NCBI GenBank assembly: GCA_014871385.1
Contig: CM026428.1
Location: 6,489,471-6,553,470, forward strand
Direction of reading: 5' to 3'
DNA: 64,000 nucleotides
From: Ceratodon purpureus
Lineage: Eukaryota > Streptophyta > Bryopsida > Pseudoditrichales > Ditrichaceae
Part shown: positions 50,299-64,000 of the stretch, piece after piece
Position numbering within the stretch: position 1 is the first letter of the stretch
Layout of the letters: each line of letters begins with the position of its first letter
Notes under the pieces: generated by a model
The model's input: the letters and a program-made list of their open reading frames with translations, nothing else
Database searches by the model: none
What the model was told of the DNA's origin: nothing
Translations under genes and position numbers: made by a program

Positions 50299-51960
50299 TA
50301 ACAAGAATTATCAGCAGAATCCTTTCAGTCAGCGGCAAATCTCGTCGCCATCTTTCGTATGGCATCTTCATGAGTCTTTCGAAGCCAACTACATCGGCTA
50401 ATTATTTGGCCAGCATGCAATGACGAGCCTCTTTCGATTTGTAGCCTTTTGTTTTCCTCGAGGAACTGAGCAGGTCAGGCTTTCGGATCCTGATAGTACC
50501 CGGAGCAGGTGTATCCGTCATGAAAGGGTTCCGATGCTTAACTCAAGATGCACATTCAGAAGCTGCTGCTTGGTTCAGATGTAGGCTTCAGGTAGCTTCT
50601 GCTTTGTAAAATACAATATGCAGTGAAACCACATGTCCTATCAGACGAAAGAGTTGTACTCAGATAGCGAAAAATGGAAAAATTCGGTTCTTGATGTACC
50701 TTCTTGATTCCATTTCTTTCCATGATTGCTGTCCTTTGTGAGATTGCTCTGCAGATGACGCCGCTTTTATCTGCCAAGATTGAATCCATTGCCCATGTAC
50801 TGATCATGTGTAAGAGTCTCTTGGGAATCGGTCCCTCGAGTTAGTTTACGTGCGAAAAGGCTGCATACCTCAAGACTTAACTTTATAAGCATTATGGTCA
50901 AGGAGTGTGTCGGAGTGCTTGTGATGCAGTTAAAAGCATACAGTATCCTTCTGTATTTCTTGGCGTGCAGGTTTGGAGGTGGGTGCCTTCTCAAACGCAT
51001 TCATTTGAAAAGTCTTCTTCCTTAATGTACAGAGGTTCCAACCCTCACGAGTTGTGCCCTGCTTATGATCATATTGGTGGCCTGTTGGTTGTCGATCAAT
51101 TATGGTCGCCACCAGCAAGGCTGTATATTTGCCAGGAGGGGTACGGTATTGACCAACACCTGGGAGCAATTTCTGTATACCGTAGAAGACGAAAGATGGT
51201 CTCTGTCAAGCGGGAGAAAATCCTCGACGTTGCACGTTCTACGTGAGGTGCTCAGGCTACCTGGAAGCTCGTCGACGCAGGAATCTGGTACGATCTTTCC
51301 TCAATCAACCCAATTCATAGTTTTGCAGCTTCCGTAATTTAAACCGGGAGTAATGAAGCCCAGGATTAGGATTTCAAATGAAAATGGGCTAGCTTAATAC
51401 ACTGGCACTGGGAAGAGCGTTTCAGAGTGTGCCACTCGGAGTGCGTGTAGACCTGGCAACTGCCAGGTTGTCTGACAGAAAAGACACGCAGCAGAAAAAA
51501 CAAGGCGAACGAAATCGGACATTCGTCCAGCACTGATGACTTATACCTGTACACACCAAGTACTGATACAGTCGCATACAAGAAAGATGAAAACATAAAG
51601 TATTGATGAAAATCATCCAGTATACTATACGTACAAATACAAGAAACGTAAAAATACGTAATTCCGCGACACAACAATACACCCGTGATACTGGTGTTCT
51701 CAAGGAAAGATCTCAGCAACCAGTGAAGATGACAAAAATAGATATGCGGAATGCAATTTTATCGGAAAACAATTTTGCCCTAAGGCTTTGGAGAATGAAT
51801 ATCAAGAGATATATGCACCCTAGGTTTAGGAGTTTCTTAACAAAGATTGCTTAAATCCCAAAAGCATAACCATGGTAATTAATTCGCCAAAATATAAATG
51901 GTTACAAGTCCATCACACAAACCCATATTCCGTAAGCACTAAACCAGTCATTACAACTTA
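50299..51960. other. mS34 3' region and spacer before the accessory block
   Basis: Ordinary-composition sequence holding the mS34 3' untranslated region. Short overlapping ORFs at 50.9-51.7 kb on both strands show no recognisable content. The left edge of the GC-richer block with palindromes lies near 51.9 kb; I found no clear terminal repeat there. Confidence 0.45.
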
Positions 51961-52400
51961 CACGAATCAATCGAACCATTCAAAATAATCATGTGGCGCC
52001 GGCGCCATATGCAAATACGAAATGATATTGCAGCATCATTTTTGCCGACTCAGCAAGATACAAATCACCGACAAAAATCGGGAAAGTTATGACAAAAGAT
52101 TCTAGAAAAGTGACCGTACGAAGCCAAAATCAAGCTAAACCTTTGAATCCGGGATACAAGCAACCTTACTGGCGCCAGCGCCACTCGACTAAATACTCCC
52201 GAAAACAGAAATTATCGGATCGAACACCAACAAGTGAACAAACGACTAAAAAAGAAGGTAAAAGGAATCCATGATCAGAGATCTGATGAACTCGTTAAAA
52301 GCGGTATGCAATACTCTGATTTTAACACAGGCAAACGAAACAAGTTAGACGGAATAGCAAAAAACGGGGTATTGGCCGCATGTAGCAACCTTGTAGTCGA

Positions 52401-53045
52401 TCATTCGTCCCGGCTGGCGTGAGTGACCTGAATCTCAAGTTCTTCCCAGCCCTTCTCGTGAGTTACCAAATATCTTCCGGTACCTCGGTGGATCCAACGT
52501 CTCGCAATATGGTCAAGCTGCCAAAAATGAAGGACTTGCATACCGAGGCTTCCTTTGACCTGTCTCGAGACGAGCACCTGCATCGCGGGAAGCGATTCCC
52601 AATTTCGATTTAAGTAAAGCGATACTTGGTCGGAAACTGGCCCAAAACTCCCTCCGCTAATCAACATGAAGTGCGGATGATAAGGAAACTTATCGGCGCT
52701 TACTCCCTTGCAGACCGATGACCAAGGGAACGACTCGTCCGGGCAAGGATCCAACAGGGGAAGAATCTCTGCAAAGAGTTTCATCAATCTACTGAAAGAT
52801 AGTGATCGAAACCATCGAGGGCCCAAGGAGGAGTTCGGCACAAGGGAATCATGATTCGGTTCGAAATCGGAGTCGCTACTATCACCTTCATCAGAGACAA
52901 TCTGCGCACCAGGGATGTAATCAACCCACCGCGTTGCCATTCCAACCATCAATGCGTCCATAATATGACCCTTCGATGGAGTATCTCCAGATGTTAAATT
53001 AACAAGCAAGGTTGACGGAACCGAAGTTGAGTGCTTCTTGGCCAT
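52401..53045 (-). CDS. Orphan 214-aa protein in the accessory block
   Basis: A continuous frame from ATG at 53045 to the stop at 52401, starting MAKKHSTSVPSTLLVNLTSG. I do not recognise it. It has an acidic patch around DEGDSSDSDFEP (about residues 53-64), then a Trp/His/Phe-rich half (PRWFRSLSFSRLMKLFAEIL, HFWQLDHIARRWIHR) that looks like a folded globular domain. There is no membrane segment or zinc motif. It lies on the same strand as, and 1.3 kb beyond, the ParB-methyltransferase gene and is flanked by two perfect palindrome copies, so it probably belongs to the same element. It could also be the last exon of a longer gene. Confidence 0.5.
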   Translation of the reverse strand: MAKKHSTSVPSTLLVNLTSGDTPSKGHIMDALMVGMATRWVDYIPGAQIVSDEGDSSDSDFEPNHDSLVPNSSLGPRWFRSLSFSRLMKLFAEILPLLDPCPDESFPWSSVCKGVSADKFPYHPHFMLISGGSFGPVSDQVSLYLNRNWESLPAMQVLVSRQVKGSLGMQVLHFWQLDHIARRWIHRGTGRYLVTHEKGWEELEIQVTHASRDE

Positions 53046-53617
53046 TGAACTTACAAGACTTCAAAATCAAAAAAGCACGAAAAACAGAAACGACAGAGAC
53101 AAGGGACCTGGTGCAATGATACCAGCAACTTTGAAATTTATCTATGTGATCCCAGGTCTCAAAAATGGCCAAGGAAGACGACGTCAAAAAGCAATTACAC
53201 CATGTCCACAGGCTATAAAATATCAGTTACGACTACAGGTTAATGACCTAATTTGATTAACAAACTACGTTTAAAAACTCAACCATACTACCATCTTATT
53301 ACATTTACTTGAAATTGCCGATATGGTATATAAATGCACGCGGCACACGACATAAATTCTCTGAAAGAAACGATATGAGATCAGATCCACAAAAACCAGT
53401 GCAATCGAGAGACGATATTGGCGCATCCTTCATAATGGGCATTGCTATCCTTGGACAACGTGCATGCCCTACTTTTGGCCGTCTTGTACAAGTTCATTAC
53501 TCCATACTCTCATAAACAGGAGCGCAATGCAGTCCATACAATACGTCCCATCAGCTAACTTTGATCTCAAGAGTGGAGTAGAAGCCAGACTCCAGAGGTT
53601 GCTCTACGTCACACCTA

Positions 53618-54113
53618 ATGGCGACTCCCAGGCGAAGATTTAGGAAGGCTCCGAGGCGGAGAAGTCGCTCCACATTGTACTGGGGAGCGAAGCAGAGGGC
53701 AAGGAGTAGGAGGACATTCGATTTCAGTTGTGCAGGTAACTTCAATCTGTATGAACCTCTCGACTGTACGTGTTTCAATGCGATTTCAATGGACAGTTTC
53801 AGCCGAATCAGATTGGTCAGACTTCGTTTCCTAATGATGATTTTGAAATTGTGCAGAATGCAGCTGTGTATGGCATTCGCGTCTCGATCGCTCGATAGCG
53901 CATGCGCCTTGGCTGCAAACCACGGACGGTGAAGAACGATTGAGCCTACCCATGTCTCCAAGGACTGAGGATCGACCGAACTACATTGAGCAATCAGCTA
54001 CGATGGAGCCAGGCAGCGAAGCAGGAACTGAAACAGGTGATTCAGTGAAGGACTATGAGATGATTTCAAAGTATTGGGTTGGTCTAGTCAGTGACACAGA
54101 CTGTGAGGAGTGA
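53618..54113 (+). CDS. Small two-exon protein, basic N terminus and acidic C terminus, 124 aa
   Basis: Exon 1 is 53618-53735 (MATPRRRFRKAPRRRSRSTL, very Arg-rich, donor GTAACT). Exon 2 is 53857-54113 (acceptor TTGTGCAG), and the phase-1 join keeps the frame open to the stop. Exon 2 encodes APWLQTTDGEERLSLPMSPR and an acidic tail ending VGLVSDTDCEE. The charge split suggests nucleic-acid binding with an acidic regulatory end, but this is inference from composition only. It sits between the 214-aa ORF and the ParB-methyltransferase gene on the opposite strand. No homologue comes to mind. The alternative is that the GC-rich first exon is a chance ORF. Confidence 0.4.
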
Positions 54114-54351
54114 GCAGCATAGCTTGTAAGCAGGTTTAAATTAAATTTTGTAGGACATGATTGGGCAAATCAAACTTTCAGCACGCAATGAACCTGATTT
54201 TGAATTCGGCTCAAGTTTTGTGTATTGTATAGAATATTAGAGGTACAAACACAGTGCATTGCACTTCTCAGTAGTCTCGATTGTGCATCAAAATGTGACT
54301 GTGAATCTAAGATTCTACACCGGCACATGATTCTATTCCTAATATCGCCCT

Positions 54352-57300
54352 TTAATCAGCCAATCCATGTGAACTACCGCTCAGGGCAGCTTGCGAAGTA
54401 GATTGAGAGAATTGTCCGTCCAACTCTGCGAAGTGCTGCTGCAAGGTTAGAATCCGATTATCCTCCAATCCCTTGTCGTGGGCGCGTTTGACTGGGAATT
54501 CATTTAGACACATATTATAAGCGTCCTCGTCTTCCTCTAAGGCGAGTACATGTCTGCCACTTAGCTCACAAGCCCGGACAGATGATCCTGTGAAAAACGA
54601 ACGCGTCGTTAGTTACCTTCTAGATAGTCCTTACTTATAAATACTCAGTATATTAACTAGATCCTTACCGATTCCGCCTGTTAGGTCAAGTACAGCGCTC
54701 CCTTTCCCAGTGCAGATTTCTATCATCGATTCCATAAAAGCCGGAGACTTTTGTTTCGACCCTCGATATGACACGGTTTCCTTGCACCGAAGCAGATTAA
54801 CATCCGTCACAACATTCTCCAGCACATCCGACGATTCAGGATTCCAATCCATTACTTTACTCGCAATTTCATTAAATCGGAATTCCATGTGACTCATGGA
54901 TCTTCGCCTTAGCACCTTCGCTTTAAAGAGACGCTTCTGAAGTCATCACACACAACAGACTAAGTTTAAACAAAGAAAATATGAACACAATGTATGCAAA
55001 TTAAAAATGAGCACGAACAATTAATAAATTAGGATAGCGAGAGTGGATGAGGCATACCCATCTCGGAAAAAATGGCCTATGGTTGATGACATAAAAGGTC
55101 CGCATACATTCCCAGTTGCTGGCCCAGCTGGGAGACATCAATGTCGGCTGCTCCTCGGCAGGTACAAATAGTAGGATAAAACCTGTATCCGCAAGCAACG
55201 ATTCCGCGGCATGAAATATGGCAGGGAAGGTAGTCCTCCTAACCATGTTCCACGGAGGTGTCTCGGACTTCCCTTTAATTTCAACATCTGGAACCGGGCT
55301 ATTGTCAGGGGTGTCACACACAATAAGATCAACACAATGCGGGCTCCATACTCTGTTGTGCTGACGAAGCGTTCCACCATTAATCTACGATAATGATACA
55401 AACAAAAATGATCAGCCAATGGTTGACATGTCAGTTGACGCCGGCGCCATTCCAATACAGTAGGTAACCAACTGAACTCGAATAATGCCAATATTGACCA
55501 CACAGGCTCACAGCAATGCGAGCAGTCGACAATCATAACCAACCTATCAATGATCTTAAGCAAAGTATCCAAAAAAGGCCATATAAATCACTTCTAAAGA
55601 TGGTCGATCGGAAATTCCCGAAAAAAAATCGAGATCGCGCGCAAGTTGAACACTGTAAGACTGAATGAATGATGACTACCACGAGACCCAGGGAGAACCG
55701 GCGCCGGCGCCACATGACAATAACAAGGGAAATCATACTACATTCTTATCACGTTTTATACATAGTACAACCAGAAACAGCAGGTCCGTAACCTATTGTT
55801 CATGGCCATATATTAAGGATATGAAATTCACGACACATAAAGGACGGAAACAAGACTCAAATACACAAAAGAGACTAGTGGCGCCGGCGCCGACTCCTAG
55901 AATGAAGTATGAACCAACCATACGATCTGAATGACGTGACCTATTCGTGACCTTAAAACCACGAGCAATATCGGTTATCAGAACACTATAACAAAACACT
56001 CAGACAATATATTACAACAAAAGCAAACAGCAGGTCGTTAGTTCCCGTTCGGTAGCATATCCAGGTCGACACGATTTTTGGTGGATCAATTGGAGCAAAG
56101 TGTAATCACCTGCTTGATAGCGCCAAGTAAGGTATTGAAATCTGATCGCTTCATCCCTTCAACAAAGCTAGCGAATGAGTAGTTCATAGATAACTTAATC
56201 GTGGGAGCGACGCCCTCAATCTTCTGGGCTTCGTATTTTTCGGGTAACAGTCTTCCAGGTTCTGGTTTAGAACGGCTCTTCCCAAGTTTAGAAGATTGCT
56301 TACGCTGTGATGTGCCGGGAAGTGAGGAATTCGGAAGCAACACATCTTTATCCGTTCCCTCTTGCGGGACATTCCTGGGTCTTAAGTCGTGCGAGTGTGA
56401 AGAACTGGCAACCTCTCGACCATCGCTCCCGATTTTGGTATTGCCTTCTTCGTGAACAGAAGAGGGAACATTCATGACTTCCGCCAGAACATTTGCAATG
56501 ATGCCACTAGCATCCTGAATCTGCGATTGATCAACGGGGACTTCCCTCCCGGTTTTCTGGGCAATCAATTCCTGCAGCTCAGTAAACAATATGGGACCGT
56601 AATGAGTGGAGTAAGTCCCAGAGTTAGTTATAGGAACGTACACAGCGTTTTGCCTACCCGATAACGCAGAAAGCAGTGTAGAGGATGGAACTACCGTGCT
56701 ATCTCCTGAATCCTCGTCGCCCTCTGCCTTCGCCAAATCTTTGAATTCCTCGAGTGTCGCCTCAAGAGCCTGGGCCTTTTCCGAGAACGGCGCAGATTCT
56801 ACGGATTCAATCTCCTTAATAACGCAGCTAAGAATGGCTTCATCATTCACATCCATGAAGCCCTGTACATCGGGAAAGTTTTCGATGTACCAACCAAGCC
56901 ATTTAAGATGCGGTGGGTCGAAATTGAACATCTGCTCTGCAGTATAAACCCCTTCTTCACTAACCCGGAGCCAGTCAGCGAAAACGGGAAATTTACTAAG
57001 ATCGCCGCTCTCCCTCGGAAGCAACGAAGTCGTCTCGCAAATCCAACGTACAAACCTCATTACAAACCGGCGGACAGCCTTCTCGCCCAAGTCGTAATTA
57101 CTTTGATCCTCCCAGCATTTGTGCCGAACAGGTCCTCCGTCAGGTTTGAAGATCTCAGGAAAAAATTGGAGAAAACCATACACCATAACCTTGTCGAAAT
57201 ACTTGTCAAAGAAGGGACGAACTTCTTCTGGCCGAACGATTCCTACCCCCTTTTCTGGTTTAGACTTCTTCACCAAATCCGTAACTATCTCAAATGCCCT

Positions 57301-60300
57301 TTTGCCCATCTGTGCCAAATTATATACGCATCTAGTAGGTCAGTCTTCAGCCCAATCAGAGCATTGTCTCACGTTCATATTTCACGTTGATTACACAGTT
57401 AAATAACAAGAAAATATCATGGAAGTTCTGCTCGGACTTTGTATAAAGATAAATAACTTTCAAACTTCGGACGAGCACGTTTACAGGAGAATAAATACAA
57501 TTCAAATTCAGATTTCTCTTGTAATCCTCCGAGGATCGATAAGAAGCCAACATTCTAAGAATGATTAAGGATGTACCTGCTCCCACCAGGCCCTGCGATT
57601 CAACCATTTTTGAAATGCTGCTCTCGTGAAATCAGAGTCGGGGAAGTGATACCTCTCTTTGTCGGCACTGGACCCATTCCAAAGCTTCAAGACTGTATGA
57701 ATGTCCACCCCTTGTGCCCCAACAAGAATGCCGAGGTTGTCGATTGTCATTGCACCTGTCTTCCTAGGGGGTTGGCGCATGTGTGCGTCGAGCTCATCAG
57801 CGAGATGGGGGTGATATTTTGGATTGCAAAGCCTGAAAATCTTTTTCATGTAGTCCAGCTTCTCCTTTCGTATCGGTGCAGCCCCGTCAAACTTTGCTTG
57901 CTCGATTTCCTGAGGCGTTGGATTTTGGACATCATCCTTCAAGGCCTTCACTCCTGCTCGCTCAGCCAATGTTATCTCACGCTGGTTACACAAACCCCAA
58001 CCGTTAGAGACTTTTCATTGTTTTTATCATAGCAAACAAAGAATATTTGCGCGTTTCCTCACGAATACAGACACTCGGGAATAAAAAATGCAGCCAAGTA
58101 TCTGCATAACTGAACAGGTAGTGCTAATTGATGACATTATCTTGATCCAGGAAACCAGCATAACATATTGCTGGTTAAGTCTATTCCCAAGTGCCAAACC
58201 AATACCTTGTCGGATCTGGATAGGCGAGAAAACTTTAGCAATACGGTCAACTAGAAATATAAATACTATCGGTCATAATGCAACAACAACCGGGGGACGG
58301 TGGAATAATCAAGCAAACTAAGTGGACTATTATCATTAAAAGGTTTCAGACCAGCATAATTCGAAACACATTTCCAACATAATCCACAAAAATAGAGCAG
58401 AACTAATCAAAGTCGCGTGCTTCTATAACTACCTGAGCAGATGGCGCTGGCCCCATGTGCTGCTCGTGAGGACTGAAATGAAGCAAACTAAGATCGATTA
58501 TGTAAACCTTTAAAATTCCATGCCGAGCTAGATCATACGCGTAGTCATCGATCAAATGGAAATCAAAAGAACCATAGGACTGTCCGGTTAAAGAAGTTTT
58601 ACAACTCGGACATACTATCCGTACATAATACCGCTATACAACTTCTAGGCGACTGAGGCAGTCGGATCCGAAAATTAGGAAATACAGAGCAAGCTCTTAC
58701 AACACTCACAAAAAAGTATGGCCACACCGCAAAACTCACGCAATATAAGAAATGCAAAACTTCCCTTAGATCACGAAGTATCAAGAAAATAGAAAAATTC
58801 TTACCTTGAAATACACTTCAGTGACGGCATCGCAAGTCATGTTGTACCACCTCCCTTTGCAGACATCGTTAATTCGATCCATTTCTGGCTCGGTAAAATA
58901 GTGCCTGTACTCCTTTGGCTCCCTTTTAGCTATCTGCATCACTTCATACAGCACGTGGGCGAGCTGCTTTTTGACTGTGGTATTCGAGGTCCCGCTGATT
59001 CAATCATGTTTCATTTTGTGAGTAACATCACCATGGACAAGGGATAGAGCTGGGCAGCAGCGTACCAAGGTGACTCGCAAAAGACATGAGAATTCCCTAA
59101 ACTCACAGCACAAACCCGGCATTTGATAGACACTCCACAGGACAAGAAGGAAATAAAAAAAACCGAAACTTACTCGTTGATGTCCCGCATAAAATTTGAA
59201 ATCCAGCCTCGATCTGCTTCACTGTCGTTGAGAACAAAACAGTTAACCTTTATGGGCTCTCCATTGTTGTCTTGAATGTGTTTCATCCATGCTAGAGCTC
59301 GGTGGTTCCCATCCCAGACATTCACATGGTGACCGATCATCTTCTCGTACATTCCTATGTTCCCAGGATCGCTCTTGCAAAGCTCTTGCAGTTCACTATC
59401 AAATTGATCCGAAACGGATTGCCATCGAGCCACGTCCTTAAATCCTTCCGCTGGATATTTCCCAGGGCTACCGGAGCAAGTAACCCAAAAGTTAGTTCCC
59501 CAGTTCCCGATGTGGAATCCATCGTACACTGTCTGCACATCTGCAGGGAGAGCTTGGCGAACCCAAGACGTAGGTTTAAGCCTGCACAGCGGAATCTCCA
59601 GACGCAGGGGTTTTATCTTCTGTATCTCAAAGTGTTTGCTGATGTTGAGTTGGCCGAACAAGGTCTCTTGGAATTTCTCGAAGGACGTCACAGTTGGATT
59701 CAGGTCGATGCTCCGATCAATGGTCTTCTCGAACGCATCGTCCTCATTGCATGGTTCGGCCTCCCCCCAGTCAATGGTCGGATCATTATTCTGCGAAGGC
59801 CAACAGTGTATAAAAAAGCTATCAACCAGCGCATGCCCTAAATTCGAAAATGGGAAGGGCCAATGCCAGAAGAATGAATCCTTCAACGAAGACGATAAAA
59901 GTACATTTACCAACATAGAGCACATTATACGTCAGATGGCGCCGGCTCCGTCTGCTTGAAATCTCCGATGCACTCAAGCAACCTTTAAATTCTGTAAACT
60001 TCAAAAATAGAGCTAGAATGGAGAGAATAATAAGCGAGAAGGACGAGAAGAATATGGAAAAGGACTCAGGGTGACCACGGGACTGCGCACATCATTCGAG
60101 CAAAGAGAGACAAATGAAGAAAAGAATTCCGTCACCATGACTGAGAAATTTTAAACTCTCCAGCCGGATGAGCAAATGCCGCGAATACATAATTTCAGAC
60201 AAAAAAAAAGAGCCTGCCTAATGGTGAAGTACCTACTGGCGCCGGCACCATCCACTCCAAGAACGACGACACAATGCAATGTGCGGCGCATTGGACTAAG

Positions 60301-60765
60301 GTATATAACATAAACGAAAACAGGATGCATAAGGATCCGAGACGTCATTAGAACAATCAAATCGCATTTCACGCAATCCAGCAGTTACTACCAGACTATT
60401 ACAGAGAAGTCTATTCTAAGCCGCAATGTCCGTTCCTAAGAGCAATAGGATGCCGAGAAATGGAAAGGGCCTCCCCCAAATCAAACTGGAGTTAGGGATA
60501 CGCATAGGCATAACATCGGGACCCAACAGGTACTCAGTACCCGTTCGTCCCCAGAATGACCACATTTTACCACATGACAGCCTACCCTAATCTCAAAATG
60601 GCGCCAGCGCCATACACCACATCACAACCTATGTTAGCGACATCGGTTGAAGTAATGTATCCTTATACCACGTACCTCGCGTTCAAGCCACAGCGTGACA
60701 GACCCCATCCGCTTCTTCTTGCGCAAACCATTGTCTGATTCAGATCCGCGCTTCGACTTGCCCAT
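54352..60765 (-). CDS. ParB/sulfiredoxin-like domain fused to a permuted DNA-methyltransferase-like fold, 1110 aa, eight exons
   Basis: Exons are 60765-60676, 59790-59174, 58994-58805, 57981-57577, 57309-56110, 55384-55058, 54936-54669 and 54587-54352; every phase joins (3333 nt). The N terminus MGKSKRGSESDNGLRKKKRM is a likely nuclear signal. Around residue 80, LRLEIPLCRLKPTSWVRQAL resembles the first ParB strand, and near 195 VWDGNHRALAWMKHI matches the ParB/Srx G-x-H-R box. Residues about 300-835 are unassigned, mostly helical then Ser-rich. The C-terminal 275 residues look like a beta-class (permuted) amino-methyltransferase: VDLIVCDTPDNSP where DPPY is expected (about 858), and then, after a spacer, GSAVLDLTGGIGSSVRACEL as the SAM-binding motif (about 1022-1041). 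The altered DTPD box makes classical N4/N6 catalysis doubtful. ParB-methylase fusions are familiar from phages and prokaryotic mobile elements; a multi-intron plant copy suggests old capture. Confidence 0.75.
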
Positions 60766-61412
60766 TCTGAAAACCGCTACAGCGACCGAACCCCAACCAG
60801 CGGAGGATCCTCTACGCAAAACTTGAAAGAAGTGTCTAAGATAAAAGCATGACCAGACAGGAATGTTTGACAAGAGTGGTGATCAAACCAAGAGAGTGAG
60901 CTACCCTAGCAAAGTTGGACCACGATGATGACACGAGCTCACGTGGACTTGAGGATAAGGTCAACATCAGCGCCTCCATTTATACCTGAGATCAGAAGCT
61001 GTACTCGTGACACATCAATGCCACAGAGTTCCGTTTGGACCATCGTTCTCATCCGACGGTAGTTTAGATCAAAAGCCTGGGCGAGTGTGGATCCCGGCTG
61101 AGTATCCGGAAATGTTACTGTTGAGCTCTTCAGATGCGATACGTAATTTAATTATCTGCAATATGGCGGCGAAGCATTACAGTTAGGATACATTTAACCG
61201 TTTGGAAGAGCGCTTTTGTGATTCTTCGGCATTACTTACACAAAAACCCGTTAGAAATTGTTGAACGAACTCGAACTGAAATCCATATAGGAGATTTAGA
61301 AACTTACATCGACGTCACTTACAGCGTCTGTAGTATTTCGAAGCTAAACGTCCAACACTCCACCCATCCCATTCCCCAATTTGCTTAGTAATTTGTAGTG
61401 AGTCACAGTGAA
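60766..61412. promoter_or_regulatory. Divergent promoter region shared by the ParB-methyltransferase and transposase-like genes
   Basis: 647 bp separate the two start codons, which face away from each other. A palindrome copy lies 150 bp inside the minus-strand gene (60599). I see no convincing TATA box, and there is no ORF here. Head-to-head spacing this short suggests co-expression. Confidence 0.45.
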
Positions 61413-64000
61413 ATGGCAACCTCTAGCCAGCTGATCTTACGCTTGGCGGGGGAGTTGTTACATTTAAAATACACGTCCTCTGACGCTGATATAGAAATAC
61501 CAGAGCTAGAACTAGTCTTCGCATTCGGCTTGCAAGAGGGCACTGTCCACATTAAGAGGATAGATTCACAAGGCGCGTTTAGAGGAGAGTTTTGGCCCGA
61601 GGATAAACTAGGTCAGTCCATGTTTAGTTTGCCAGTTGTTGACCGCGCCTCATACATAGTTTTTGGAGAGATGGATCCGGATCCTTCGCGGCCTGACCTC
61701 ACAGCTGGTATAGTTGCAAGGAAACCGACCAATATTATTGAGTTAGACGATACATCTGTCGACACGACCAGCACAGGTAGCCAGATGTCGTTCGGCAGTA
61801 GAGAGTTTCAAGGTCCATCTTCAGCAGCGCAAGCATGTCAGGACGGTCAACGATCATTAAGCTTGGAAGACTACCCGATTGAACGCCTTGACGAAACCTC
61901 CACTCCTCAGGGCCAGTTTTCTCCGGTGACATCGCGGCCTACCGCTGATGACGGCATGCCAGAATCACCTCGATTTGGGAGCGAATCCCCCGAAGATGAA
62001 CTAGCGGGCCAGGCAACAAACGCTCCTGGAAGCGACCCAGAACCCGAGGCCGAGGGAGCTGAAGAATTTATACTAGAGGACATTTCATACCCGAGCATGC
62101 GCGCAGGGACTCGAAGGAGTGCAACAGAGGAAGACCATCAGGATCCAGGTAGTAAGTCTATACTACCCCTTCTAATGGGCTTGGCAAGCCGTGGATGTAC
62201 TGGAGAATTTGCGTACTTACCGTTTGCTGAATTTTCACGGAGCAAATGCAACTATCTTCCCATGGTCTATGATGGGAACTGTATTTTCGAACTCCCTCCA
62301 CTGATTGACGACGATACAATATCTACGGATATATCATTCGACCCTCATCCATGGGTGAAGTCCAATAGTTACAAGTCAAACATTTTAGACGACGCAGGCC
62401 TTCGTGTTCGAAAATCGTTCTGCAGTGGATCCTTCATCTGCAGGAGTTCAGAATGCAGCCATCTTACTCTCCATGGAACACCAAACACGCTATACTGGGA
62501 AGGCCGCTGTCAGGCCAAGCCTACGCCCGGAAGTATTCCAATTGATGGTGACTGGAGGTGCTCATTTTGCCGGTGGACTCCAACTTGTGTGTCGCAATGT
62601 TCAAGCGTACTTTGGGTTGTTCACCATGAATCAGACATTTATACTCGGGCGGTTGTGCATACTGGCATACATAGCCATCCATCACCTCCAGGTAGAAGTC
62701 GAGAGGCTTATGCTAACATGACCGTCACTATTCAGAGGTATCTTGATCAAAACCCTTGGCTCTTGGATGCGCCCGGTTGGGTAGGATTTCGTTGTGCCCA
62801 CAGAAATTTCCTAGACCTAATTATTCAGGCAACCACTGTTGATGAGCAACGACTTATGACCGAATCTCAGCTACATGAGATTCTCGAAACTGCGCCACCA
62901 TATCACGACAAGGGACGGGTCAAATACGTTGTGACGAAATTTAGGGCGGATCAAGAGAGGTGTATATTTGCGTTGAAAAAATACTCTCGCTACAGTTTTA
63001 TCCAGGACAGCCATTTCCCAGGTCAGTCCCACAATGGCATCCAGTTTGTTTTCAAAATGTCAACCGTGGGCATTGGTAGCGGTGTAAACCTTGTGAAAAG
63101 GATGACGTGCGGGGATCTCAGAGATTCCTTTATCATGTTTGACCACATCAAGCGTGTGAACTTGTGGACAACCATGGCAGCACATGTATATGATCACAAC
63201 TTGGGAAGGCTGCTGACAATAGCAGTTTGTGAAATGAAGTTGGAAAATACCGAAAACCAAGTCAAGTTTTGGGAGTTACTAATTGAGACAGTAGTTCGAA
63301 GTGGACAGCCTCGGCCAAAATTCAAAGGGTTTATGGCCGACGCTGCACCTGCAAATTATAACGCAGTCCGGAAGGTCTTTGGAAATTCAGAGGGTTTGGA
63401 TGGCGATGTCCAGGACGATGAACAAGTTCCAAATCCCAGTGACCCAATCCTACGAACTTGCTACTTTCACTTTGTTCAAAGCATTCGGGATCATACGAAT
63501 AAATGGATCCTTGAGAAATACCGCCCTCACCACGTAGAGATGTGCAAGAGATGGGCTGCTGCTCCAACAAACGAAGCGCAGTGCACAAGGACAATCTGCG
63601 AAACATGCAGGCATGGATGACATGGTGGATGGCACGGCGCACGCTTTTTGCTTATCATCATCTTAATGAACTGGACCTGGATCTGGAGAGTGAAGCCCTT
63701 GTACCAACCACAAATCTCTGCGAAGCAGTCCATAGTTCGATGTGGGCAACTTCTGCAAGTGGATTGAAGGTTAAAATGGATTTATATACAGTTTGCGCGG
63801 AAGACATGACAAGATCTTTGCTACAACAGCAGTTCTGTTTGGCGGCATCCAAAGGTCTGCTCCGTGGACGTGGACCATCAAAAGCAGAATTGATGTGGCG
63901 AAACGCAGCAAGGTCTTATAAACCAGAGCGCCTAGCCATGGCGGTGAAGTCAGCAGTCGAAGGCACCCAGTTTCATTCACGGGGTTTGGGTTTAGAGGGC
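61413..64000 (+). CDS. GCM/WRKY-zinc plus MULE-like transposase-related protein, frameshifted and cut by window end
   Basis: The frame runs from ATG 61413 to a stop at 63618-63620. It continues in another frame (from about 63530 on, e.g. NMQAWMTWWMARRTLFAYHH, then EAVHSSMWATSASGLK) to the window end. The start at 61413 is the first ATG; the frame is open upstream only through a GTG. Regions are an N-terminal helical part (MATSSQLILRLAGELLHLKY), an acidic Ser/Pro-rich linker (residues about 110-250), a zinc module with CRSSECSHL, CSFCRWTPTC and HTGIHSHP (WRKY/GCM/FLYWCH-like), then a MULE-type RNase-H-like core (FKGFMADAAPANYNAVRKVF, CYFHFVQSIRDHTNKW). These features are typical of Mutator-related plant transposases and their domesticated relatives. 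The frame change is best explained by an indel or assembly error; I see no obvious slippery site or fitting intron. Confidence 0.7.

Follow-up and report, generated by a model that had tools for sequence, protein, structure and literature searches.

The right end of a 64,000-nucleotide stretch of the Ceratodon purpureus genome (G000:C8:6489471-6553470, hereafter the window) holds a block of genes among which one short palindrome recurs, and the question raised by this locus is whether the block is a single mobile element and, if so, what its palindromes are for. A preliminary description of the window had proposed one mobile element in which a transposase gene stands head-to-head with a ParB/methyltransferase-like gene. 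The genome comprises 362 Mb in 151 contigs, with 110.5 Mb in contig C6 alone, and the block is the left part of one giant DNA transposon carrying this gene pair. We propose, as a reading with an even chance of being right, a giant Mutator-like element one of whose own proteins, most likely the ParB/methyltransferase-like one, reads dispersed near-palindromic sites, perhaps against host silencing. Coordinates given below are those of the window, and those above 64,000 continue it rightwards.

Ends and copies of the element

A DNA search using positions 51994-54994 as query returned 66 matches, including two further copies at 99-100% identity, one at 84%, and 12 at 70-71% across most of the query; the block is therefore a member of a repeat family. 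Borders were read by comparing the window copy (copy A), continued rightwards, with copies on contigs C4 and C6. The left border was sharp at 51410 against both, and the right border was placed at 95274 against the C6 copy, 31 kb past the window, with unrelated flanks on either side. The element is thus 43,865 bp long, with its left 12.6 kb inside the window. The start given earlier, 51994, is that of the first palindrome; sequence common to the copies begins at 51410. The suggestion that termini be sought past 64 kb was borne out by inverted repeats and a target duplication. The left terminal inverted repeat occupies 51410..51439 (plus strand) at the border that is sharp in the compared copies, and the left target-site duplication CACTGGCACT (51400..51409) recurs immediately beyond the right end.

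The left 251 bp and the right 400 bp, used as queries, matched 40 and 21 listed places, respectively, and 16 pairs of ends were formed by position and orientation. Unpaired ends (24 left, 18 of them short matches of less than 125 bp, and 5 right) were left out. The 16 copies with both ends, A and C included, are 42.3-62.8 kb long; their interiors were read in part, and part of copy B consists of N. In 15 of the 16, direct target duplications of 9-10 bp (10 bp in the window copy, 9 bp in others) flank the element at the same two ends, with the left end of copy C6:8075253-8121761 set two bases further outward. The sole copy without a duplication, C1:20262659-20315460, has the same left flank as the copy at C4:12149837 and is for this reason probably rearranged. 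Terminal inverted repeats are weak, with 16-22 of 30 positions identical in register in 15 copies; the remaining copy has 13 of 30, rising to 16 after a shift by 2. Two copies on C3 reach 22 of 30 (GGGGAGAGAGTTTCGGAGTGTGCCACTCGG versus GAGGTAGTAGTTTCGGAGTGTGTCACTTAG), and a perfect 14-nt core is present in the inverted repeats of three copies.

Related copies of the element number in the dozens, and some are 98% identical. A local duplication, or a set of unrelated neighbouring genes, is ruled out by the common ends and target duplications. In this genome the genes are neither single-copy nor unpaired, and termini are present. The GC content of the block (0.43-0.48) is higher than that of the neighbouring 46-48 kb (0.29), as had been described, but it is not the highest in the window, since 0.52 is reached at 31-33 kb.

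Many other places match just the first 60-73 bp of the left end at 79-85% identity (e.g., C119:15613-15684, C108:9243-9314, and C6:53577189-53577247). These are perhaps short or otherwise different elements with a common terminus.

The transposase and its head-to-head partner

The two genes diverge from a shared upstream region of exactly 647 bp (60766..61412), the length given in the preliminary description, and no palindrome site lies within it. Four open reading frames (ORFs) had been counted in the block. The frame at 52401-53045 is a separate gene and the transposase runs from 61413 onward, but those at 59.2-59.8, 57.6-58.0, 56.1-57.3, and 54.4-55.4 kb are better modelled as exons of one spliced gene, the partner. 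The head-to-head arrangement recurs across the genome: the transposase was found at 73 places or more (with 72 of 3,317 first-look candidates scored and some loci giving two pieces), and at 68 of these 73 the ParB-like exon of the partner has a match no more than 15 kb away, which in 67 cases lies upstream on the opposite strand. For that exon the top 99 of 150 listed places were used; the 51 left out comprised 7 short pieces and 44 members of a distinct family at 25-32% identity. Common termini, duplications in 15 of 16 copies, and this pairing together uphold the proposal of one mobile element with both genes.

The transposase gene (61413..64000 and on to 65959 past the window, plus strand) is broken in the window copy by a frame-shifting 49-bp deletion near 63574. 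Copy B has TGA and TAG stops, and the open frame of copy C ends after 928 codons. In copy F the frame is open over 1,516 codons, and frames of about 1,400-1,700 codons, free of stops in the matched part, occur in many relatives within this genome. Selection was estimated as the ratio of nonsynonymous to synonymous substitution rates (dN/dS) by NG86, comparing copy A or C with F; synonymous divergence is high, so that all values given here are rough. For the first 900 codons of the transposase, dN/dS was 0.10. The motifs D, D, C-x2-H, and E follow one another in Mutator-like order with a spacing of 66/40/104, and local elements recognised by PF10551 have a spacing of 67/37/95 in one case and 66/23 in another. 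The C-terminus carries CNC...CKHMYH, which we take to be a SWIM-like zinc finger; this stretch has no match in Pfam. Inspection by eye of copies C and F and of the relatives L033 and L034 showed, upstream of the catalytic motifs, a module rich in cysteine and histidine. The WRKY/GCM identity once attributed to it found no matching profile and was dropped. Below the Pfam cut-off, matches were to unrelated families only (PF16754 at E 0.22 and, for L034, DUF6395 at E 0.002). By its duplication length, inverted repeats, and motif order, the element is probably of the Mutator-like type, and its transposase would cut and insert it at its ends by DDE chemistry.

Two observations concern relatives of the transposase. 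L034 (C12:9216472-9218115), 51% identical, has 1,334 aa in one open frame and a ParB-like match beside it. The first aspartate is missing from it, as is the C-x2-H motif; it is possibly a non-catalytic or co-opted form. Stops were found in 20 of 32 transposase matches on C6 and in 3 of 41 elsewhere, among the matches listed; C6 possibly keeps decayed copies and may be a non-recombining sex chromosome.

Exons of the partner were predicted from conservation with copies E and F, which belong to another subfamily, and joined at GT/AG sites. The resulting model for the window copy runs on the minus strand from 60765 to 54352, with eight exons and a predicted product of 1,110 aa. Exon 1 (60676..60765) holds the start codon and a basic N-terminus. 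Exon 2 (59174..59790) holds the ParB-like segment IPLCRL ... VWDGNHRALAW, the second part of which is presumably a ParB-type (GNHR-type) motif. Exons 3 (58805..58994), 4 (57577..57981), and 5 (56110..57309) follow; of the methyltransferase-like part, the motif IV region is in exon 6 (55058..55384) and the motif X/I region in exon 7 (54669..54936; QKS..., VLDLTGGIG). Exon 8 (54352..54587) contains the stop codon and the end of the gene. The dN/dS values of exons 2, 4, and 7 (0.057, 0.058, and 0.039) indicate purifying selection; exon 5 evolves faster (0.33), and exon 6 is saturated at synonymous sites.

The C-terminal 280 aa of the partner match PF01555 exactly at the gathering score (26.7 bits, E 6.6e-6), with the whole protein scoring 23.1 bits, below the cut-off. 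The C-terminal part also matches PHROG methyltransferases at E about 1e-6 and aligns with two phage methyltransferases across motifs IV, X, and I. The methyltransferase half of the earlier ParB-methyltransferase label is thus backed by homology over motifs X, I, and IV, and the order of these motifs would make it a beta-class domain, as we understand that class; the ParB half is a likeness of motif and has no family match. Relatives of the ParB-like segment were not found in phages or plasmids, in viral contigs (with a single-sequence query that detects close relatives only), or in prokaryotic contigs, where none of 30 pattern matches was upheld by tblastn. PDB matches of alignment A1, which includes two phage methyltransferases, were discarded as evidence for the partner domain alone.

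If the partner were an active DNA methyltransferase, it could chemically mark the GGCGCC sites of the element and so separate self from host. The G-x-G of motif I and the aspartate and proline of motif IV are kept, exon 7 is under strong purifying selection, and beta-class enzymes often recognise palindromes. The catalytic motif of beta-class N6/N4 DNA methyltransferases, [DNS]-x-P-[YFW], is nevertheless absent: the CDLPY of phage relatives has become CDTPD, without the aromatic residue, in copies A, D, E, and F (CDTPDN is identical in all four), and motif I has changed from VLDNCMGSGTT to VLDLTGGIGSS. An active enzyme is therefore improbable in our judgement. The degenerate catalytic motif suits a reader more than a writer, and a partner that kept the framework of an S-adenosylmethionine (SAM) domain and lost the catalytic aromatic residue would probably read GGCGCC-type palindromes instead of methylating them.

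Two further observations touch the ParB-like exon. At C9:184980, C9:379531, C9:452181, and C3:186262, a ParB-like match (65-67% identity) has a methyltransferase match nearby, and no listed transposase lies within 15 kb. The second, distant family of ParB-like ORFs, represented by L035 (C8:8019600-8020700) and 43 further rows at 25-32% identity, is present in many copies with open frames of 205-433 aa, many near 320-365; L035 has no match in phages, and the family may mark another kind of element.

Near-palindromic sites and their proposed reader

The element-specific near-palindrome, TGGCGCCRGCGCCA, has two exact forms, a G form (TGGCGCCGGCGCCA) of perfect inverted symmetry and an A form (TGGCGCCAGCGCCA). 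Genome-wide, 793 exact G forms and 415 exact A forms were counted, with reversed controls giving 0 in each case. The 50 listed places of the G form are all on C1, and 47 of them lie within 50 kb of an element gene, in zones that cover 466 kb of that contig. For the A form, 86 of 100 listed places are inside an element with a listed transposase and 14 are outside. With two mismatches or fewer, the window element has 32 occurrences of GGCGCCGGCGCC (31 non-overlapping), against none in 60.1 kb outside it; the nine non-overlapping copies inside the window all fall in the block, just as first reported. Counts inside and outside other copies were 31 and 3 for C, 7 and 0 for D, 24 and 0 for E, 21 and 0 for F, and 18 and 1 for B. 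Copies A and C (42-44 kb), the two counted whole, have about 30 sites each. In A, E, and F, sites follow one another at roughly one per 1-1.4 kb, for the most part in introns or between genes. Coding models take up 13,093 of the 43,865 bp of the window copy and hold 3 of its 31 sites, each of them in the tail of the transposase.

Many of the nine sites are kept between subfamilies. Site 1 (TGGCGCCGGCGCCA, 51994..52007) and site 2 (TGGCGCCAGCGCCA, 52170..52183) are conserved at 14/14 positions in both E and F. Among sites in predicted introns, site 3 (55436..55449) scores 13/14 in both, site 4 (55699..55712) 13/14 in F and 12/14 in E, and site 6 (58442..58455) 11/14 in both, while in intron 1 site 8 (60237..60250) scores 11/14 in F and 12/14 in E and site 9 (60599..60612) 14/14 and 12/14. 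Placement is not always kept: site 7, also in intron 1 (59937..59950, scored at 59938), has 8/14 in F and 11/14 in E, and the intronic site 5 (55879..55892) has 7/14 and 5/14. Across eight aligned noncoding segments, identical positions make up 154/182 of the site columns in A-F and 152/182 in A-E, about 85%, versus 2460/5273 and 2423/5273, about 47%, of other noncoding columns, a difference that MAFFT may inflate by pairing sites with each other. A chance palindrome is ruled out by the 793 and 415 exact copies against none in the controls and by site conservation.

Palindromes could also be passive: conversion or duplication may have spread them within the element, and they would persist simply through the youth of the copies. 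Some sites do belong to tandem repeats (84-88.6 kb) or to repeated stretches in the tail of the transposase, and the 98% identity of some copies points the same way. We give this account little credence, since site columns are far more conserved than other noncoding DNA and motif variants are present in the 73%-identity subfamily L033, where the stretch from the transposase to the ParB-like exon has three at two mismatches or fewer, one of them at one or fewer.

Orientation and spacing of the sites are not uniform. The A form has the same orientation as the transposase in 65 cases and the opposite in 21 (86 assignable of 100 listed), a preference that is unexplained and comes from homologous copies. 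Neighbouring sites 150-270 bp apart, near nucleosome spacing, are over-represented (7/30 in A, 9/21 in E, and 7/20 in F versus about 2 expected under uniform placement), and the sites of these three copies are homologous, so that neither set of counts is independent. Both patterns, together with the perfect symmetry of the G form, would suit sites that act in replication, recombination, or DNA structure, as a cruciform or a polar signal, and not in chromatin marking. The dependence between copies takes away from this, and no replication gene was found among 10 scanned proteins and ORFs, covering part of the element; such a role seems to us very improbable.

It is fairly likely that the sites are bound by a protein of the element. 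The transposase itself could be that protein, recognising the sites through its N-terminal cysteine/histidine module for transposition, for example by gathering a 44-kb element for synapsis. Subterminal repeats play such a role in Ac/Ds or En/Spm, most of the listed sites fall inside or close to an element with a transposase match, and the module was seen in four sequences. The sites are nonetheless spread along the parts of A, C, E, and F that were read, at about one per kb with no clustering near the ends, and a conserved partner gene would not be needed. We consider the transposase an unlikely reader. The ParB/methyltransferase-like protein is preferred because the partner is conserved, its domain class recognises DNA sequence, and its catalytic motif is degenerate, and we put its claim just short of even. 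The idea that a methyltransferase-like protein marks or reads element DNA was part of the preliminary description; conserved, element-wide sites fit it, and we infer as much here. Once bound, the protein would coat long noncoding DNA, through which the element could identify copies of itself and withstand silencing by the host in a manner like that of VANC. Such a purpose, whether anti-silencing or self-marking of chromatin, is put forward tentatively.

Several points weigh against this reading. No transposase or zinc-finger profile in Pfam recognises the transposase (E up to 1, then up to 10), PF10551 matches 93 other places in the genome and none is among the element transposases listed, and hhalign against three local PF10551 elements gave a probability of 0.5%, an uninformative comparison. 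Inverted repeats of the window copy match at only 16 of 30 positions. The ParB-like segment has no ParB-family match in Pfam, PHROGs, PADLOC, or PDB, and 27 of the 99 ParB-like matches are without a listed transposase within 15 kb; these may be fragments, copies outside the scored list, or elements without a transposase. Two of 13 raw sites (55880 and 55886) score just 5-7/14, and the alignment effect and the homology of the counted copies have been noted above. The cysteine/histidine module of the transposase is a possible reader as well.

Beyond the gene pair, the element contains a 214-aa gene (MAKKHSTSV..., 52401..53045, minus strand) with a dN/dS of 0.20 between subfamilies. The remaining 31 kb includes RING-like ORFs at 67180-67926 and 89466-90695 (weak Pfam matches, E 0.04-0.6), several ORFs without a Pfam match, and tandem repeats. 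Large imperfect tandem repeats at 83155-88804 are arranged differently in copies A and C.

Comparison with known transposons and ParB systems

No description of such an element was found in the open PMC papers searched. Mutator-like elements (MULEs) have target duplications of 8-11 bp and terminal inverted repeats (TIRs) that are absent in non-TIR MULEs (PMC6446971). The element resembles them in its 9-10 bp duplications, weak inverted repeats of about 30 bp, D-D-CxxH-E order, and putative SWIM-like C-terminus (PMC6446971), and the first spacing of 66 agrees with the 66-67 of two local PF10551 elements. It differs in its giant size, in escaping PF10551, and in its ParB/methyltransferase-like partner, which does not appear in the parts of the MULE group table consulted (PMC6446971). 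Formal membership in the MULEs is unproven, since PF10551 does not see the transposase and hhalign was uninformative.

Fungal KDZ transposons are linked to DNA-modifying enzymes, and KDZ target duplications are 8 bp long, unlike the 9-10 bp found here. A KDZ identity was set aside on this length and on the lack of a KDZ-named family among the Pfam matches, from a library that we presume holds such a model. The likeness to KDZ elements of algae and fungi lies in giant DNA transposons with transposases of more than 1,300 aa and accessory genes (PMC12477816). At 42-63 kb, the elements described here exceed the KDZ lengths of 30.3 and 31.7 kb quoted there (PMC12477816).

A fusion of ParB and methylase is known from Bacillus cereus (Bce_0392; PMC5512222), and the partner would likewise join a ParB-like segment to a DNA methylase-like domain, as in the bacterial and phage proteins (PMC5512222). 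Unlike these, it is encoded by a spliced gene of a eukaryotic transposon, its catalytic motif is degenerate, and its ParB similarity is at the level of motifs. The element would place in a eukaryote a fusion that has otherwise been described from bacteria and phages. As with ParB and parS, palindromic sites and the partner gene co-occur on the element, and binding is putative. A parS-like marking, in which a ParB/pseudo-methyltransferase captured from a prokaryote or virus loads on the near-palindromes and leaves the element open, recognised as self, or compacted for transposition, is somewhat unlikely. If true, it would give a mobile element a sequence-tagged 'self' identity, none such having been found in the open PMC literature.

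The closest likeness in organisation is to the VANDAL elements of Arabidopsis, where VANC binds to short motifs outside the coding parts of the element and removes methylation there (PMC5735166, PMC10398659; review PMC13317346). Both are DNA transposons that carry accessory genes and, in their introns and between their genes, short motifs specific to the element (PMC5735166, PMC10398659), and the trait of a short repeated motif in noncoding parts is present here. VANDAL motifs are described as 8-9-mers that are not palindromic, are arranged in tandem repeats, and differ from family to family (PMC5735166). That trait was not found: one near-palindrome, mostly dispersed, is common to several diverged subfamilies, a difference that belongs with the points listed against our reading. 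The elements here are also far from VANDAL in their 42-63 kb length and ParB/methyltransferase-like accessory protein, and the likeness drawn here is one of organisation. Because the protein and the DNA site are defined and natural copies number in the dozens, they offer material for the study of transposon self-recognition and escape from silencing, and they could be a second, independently built answer to the problem solved by VANC, with one motif kept across subfamilies.

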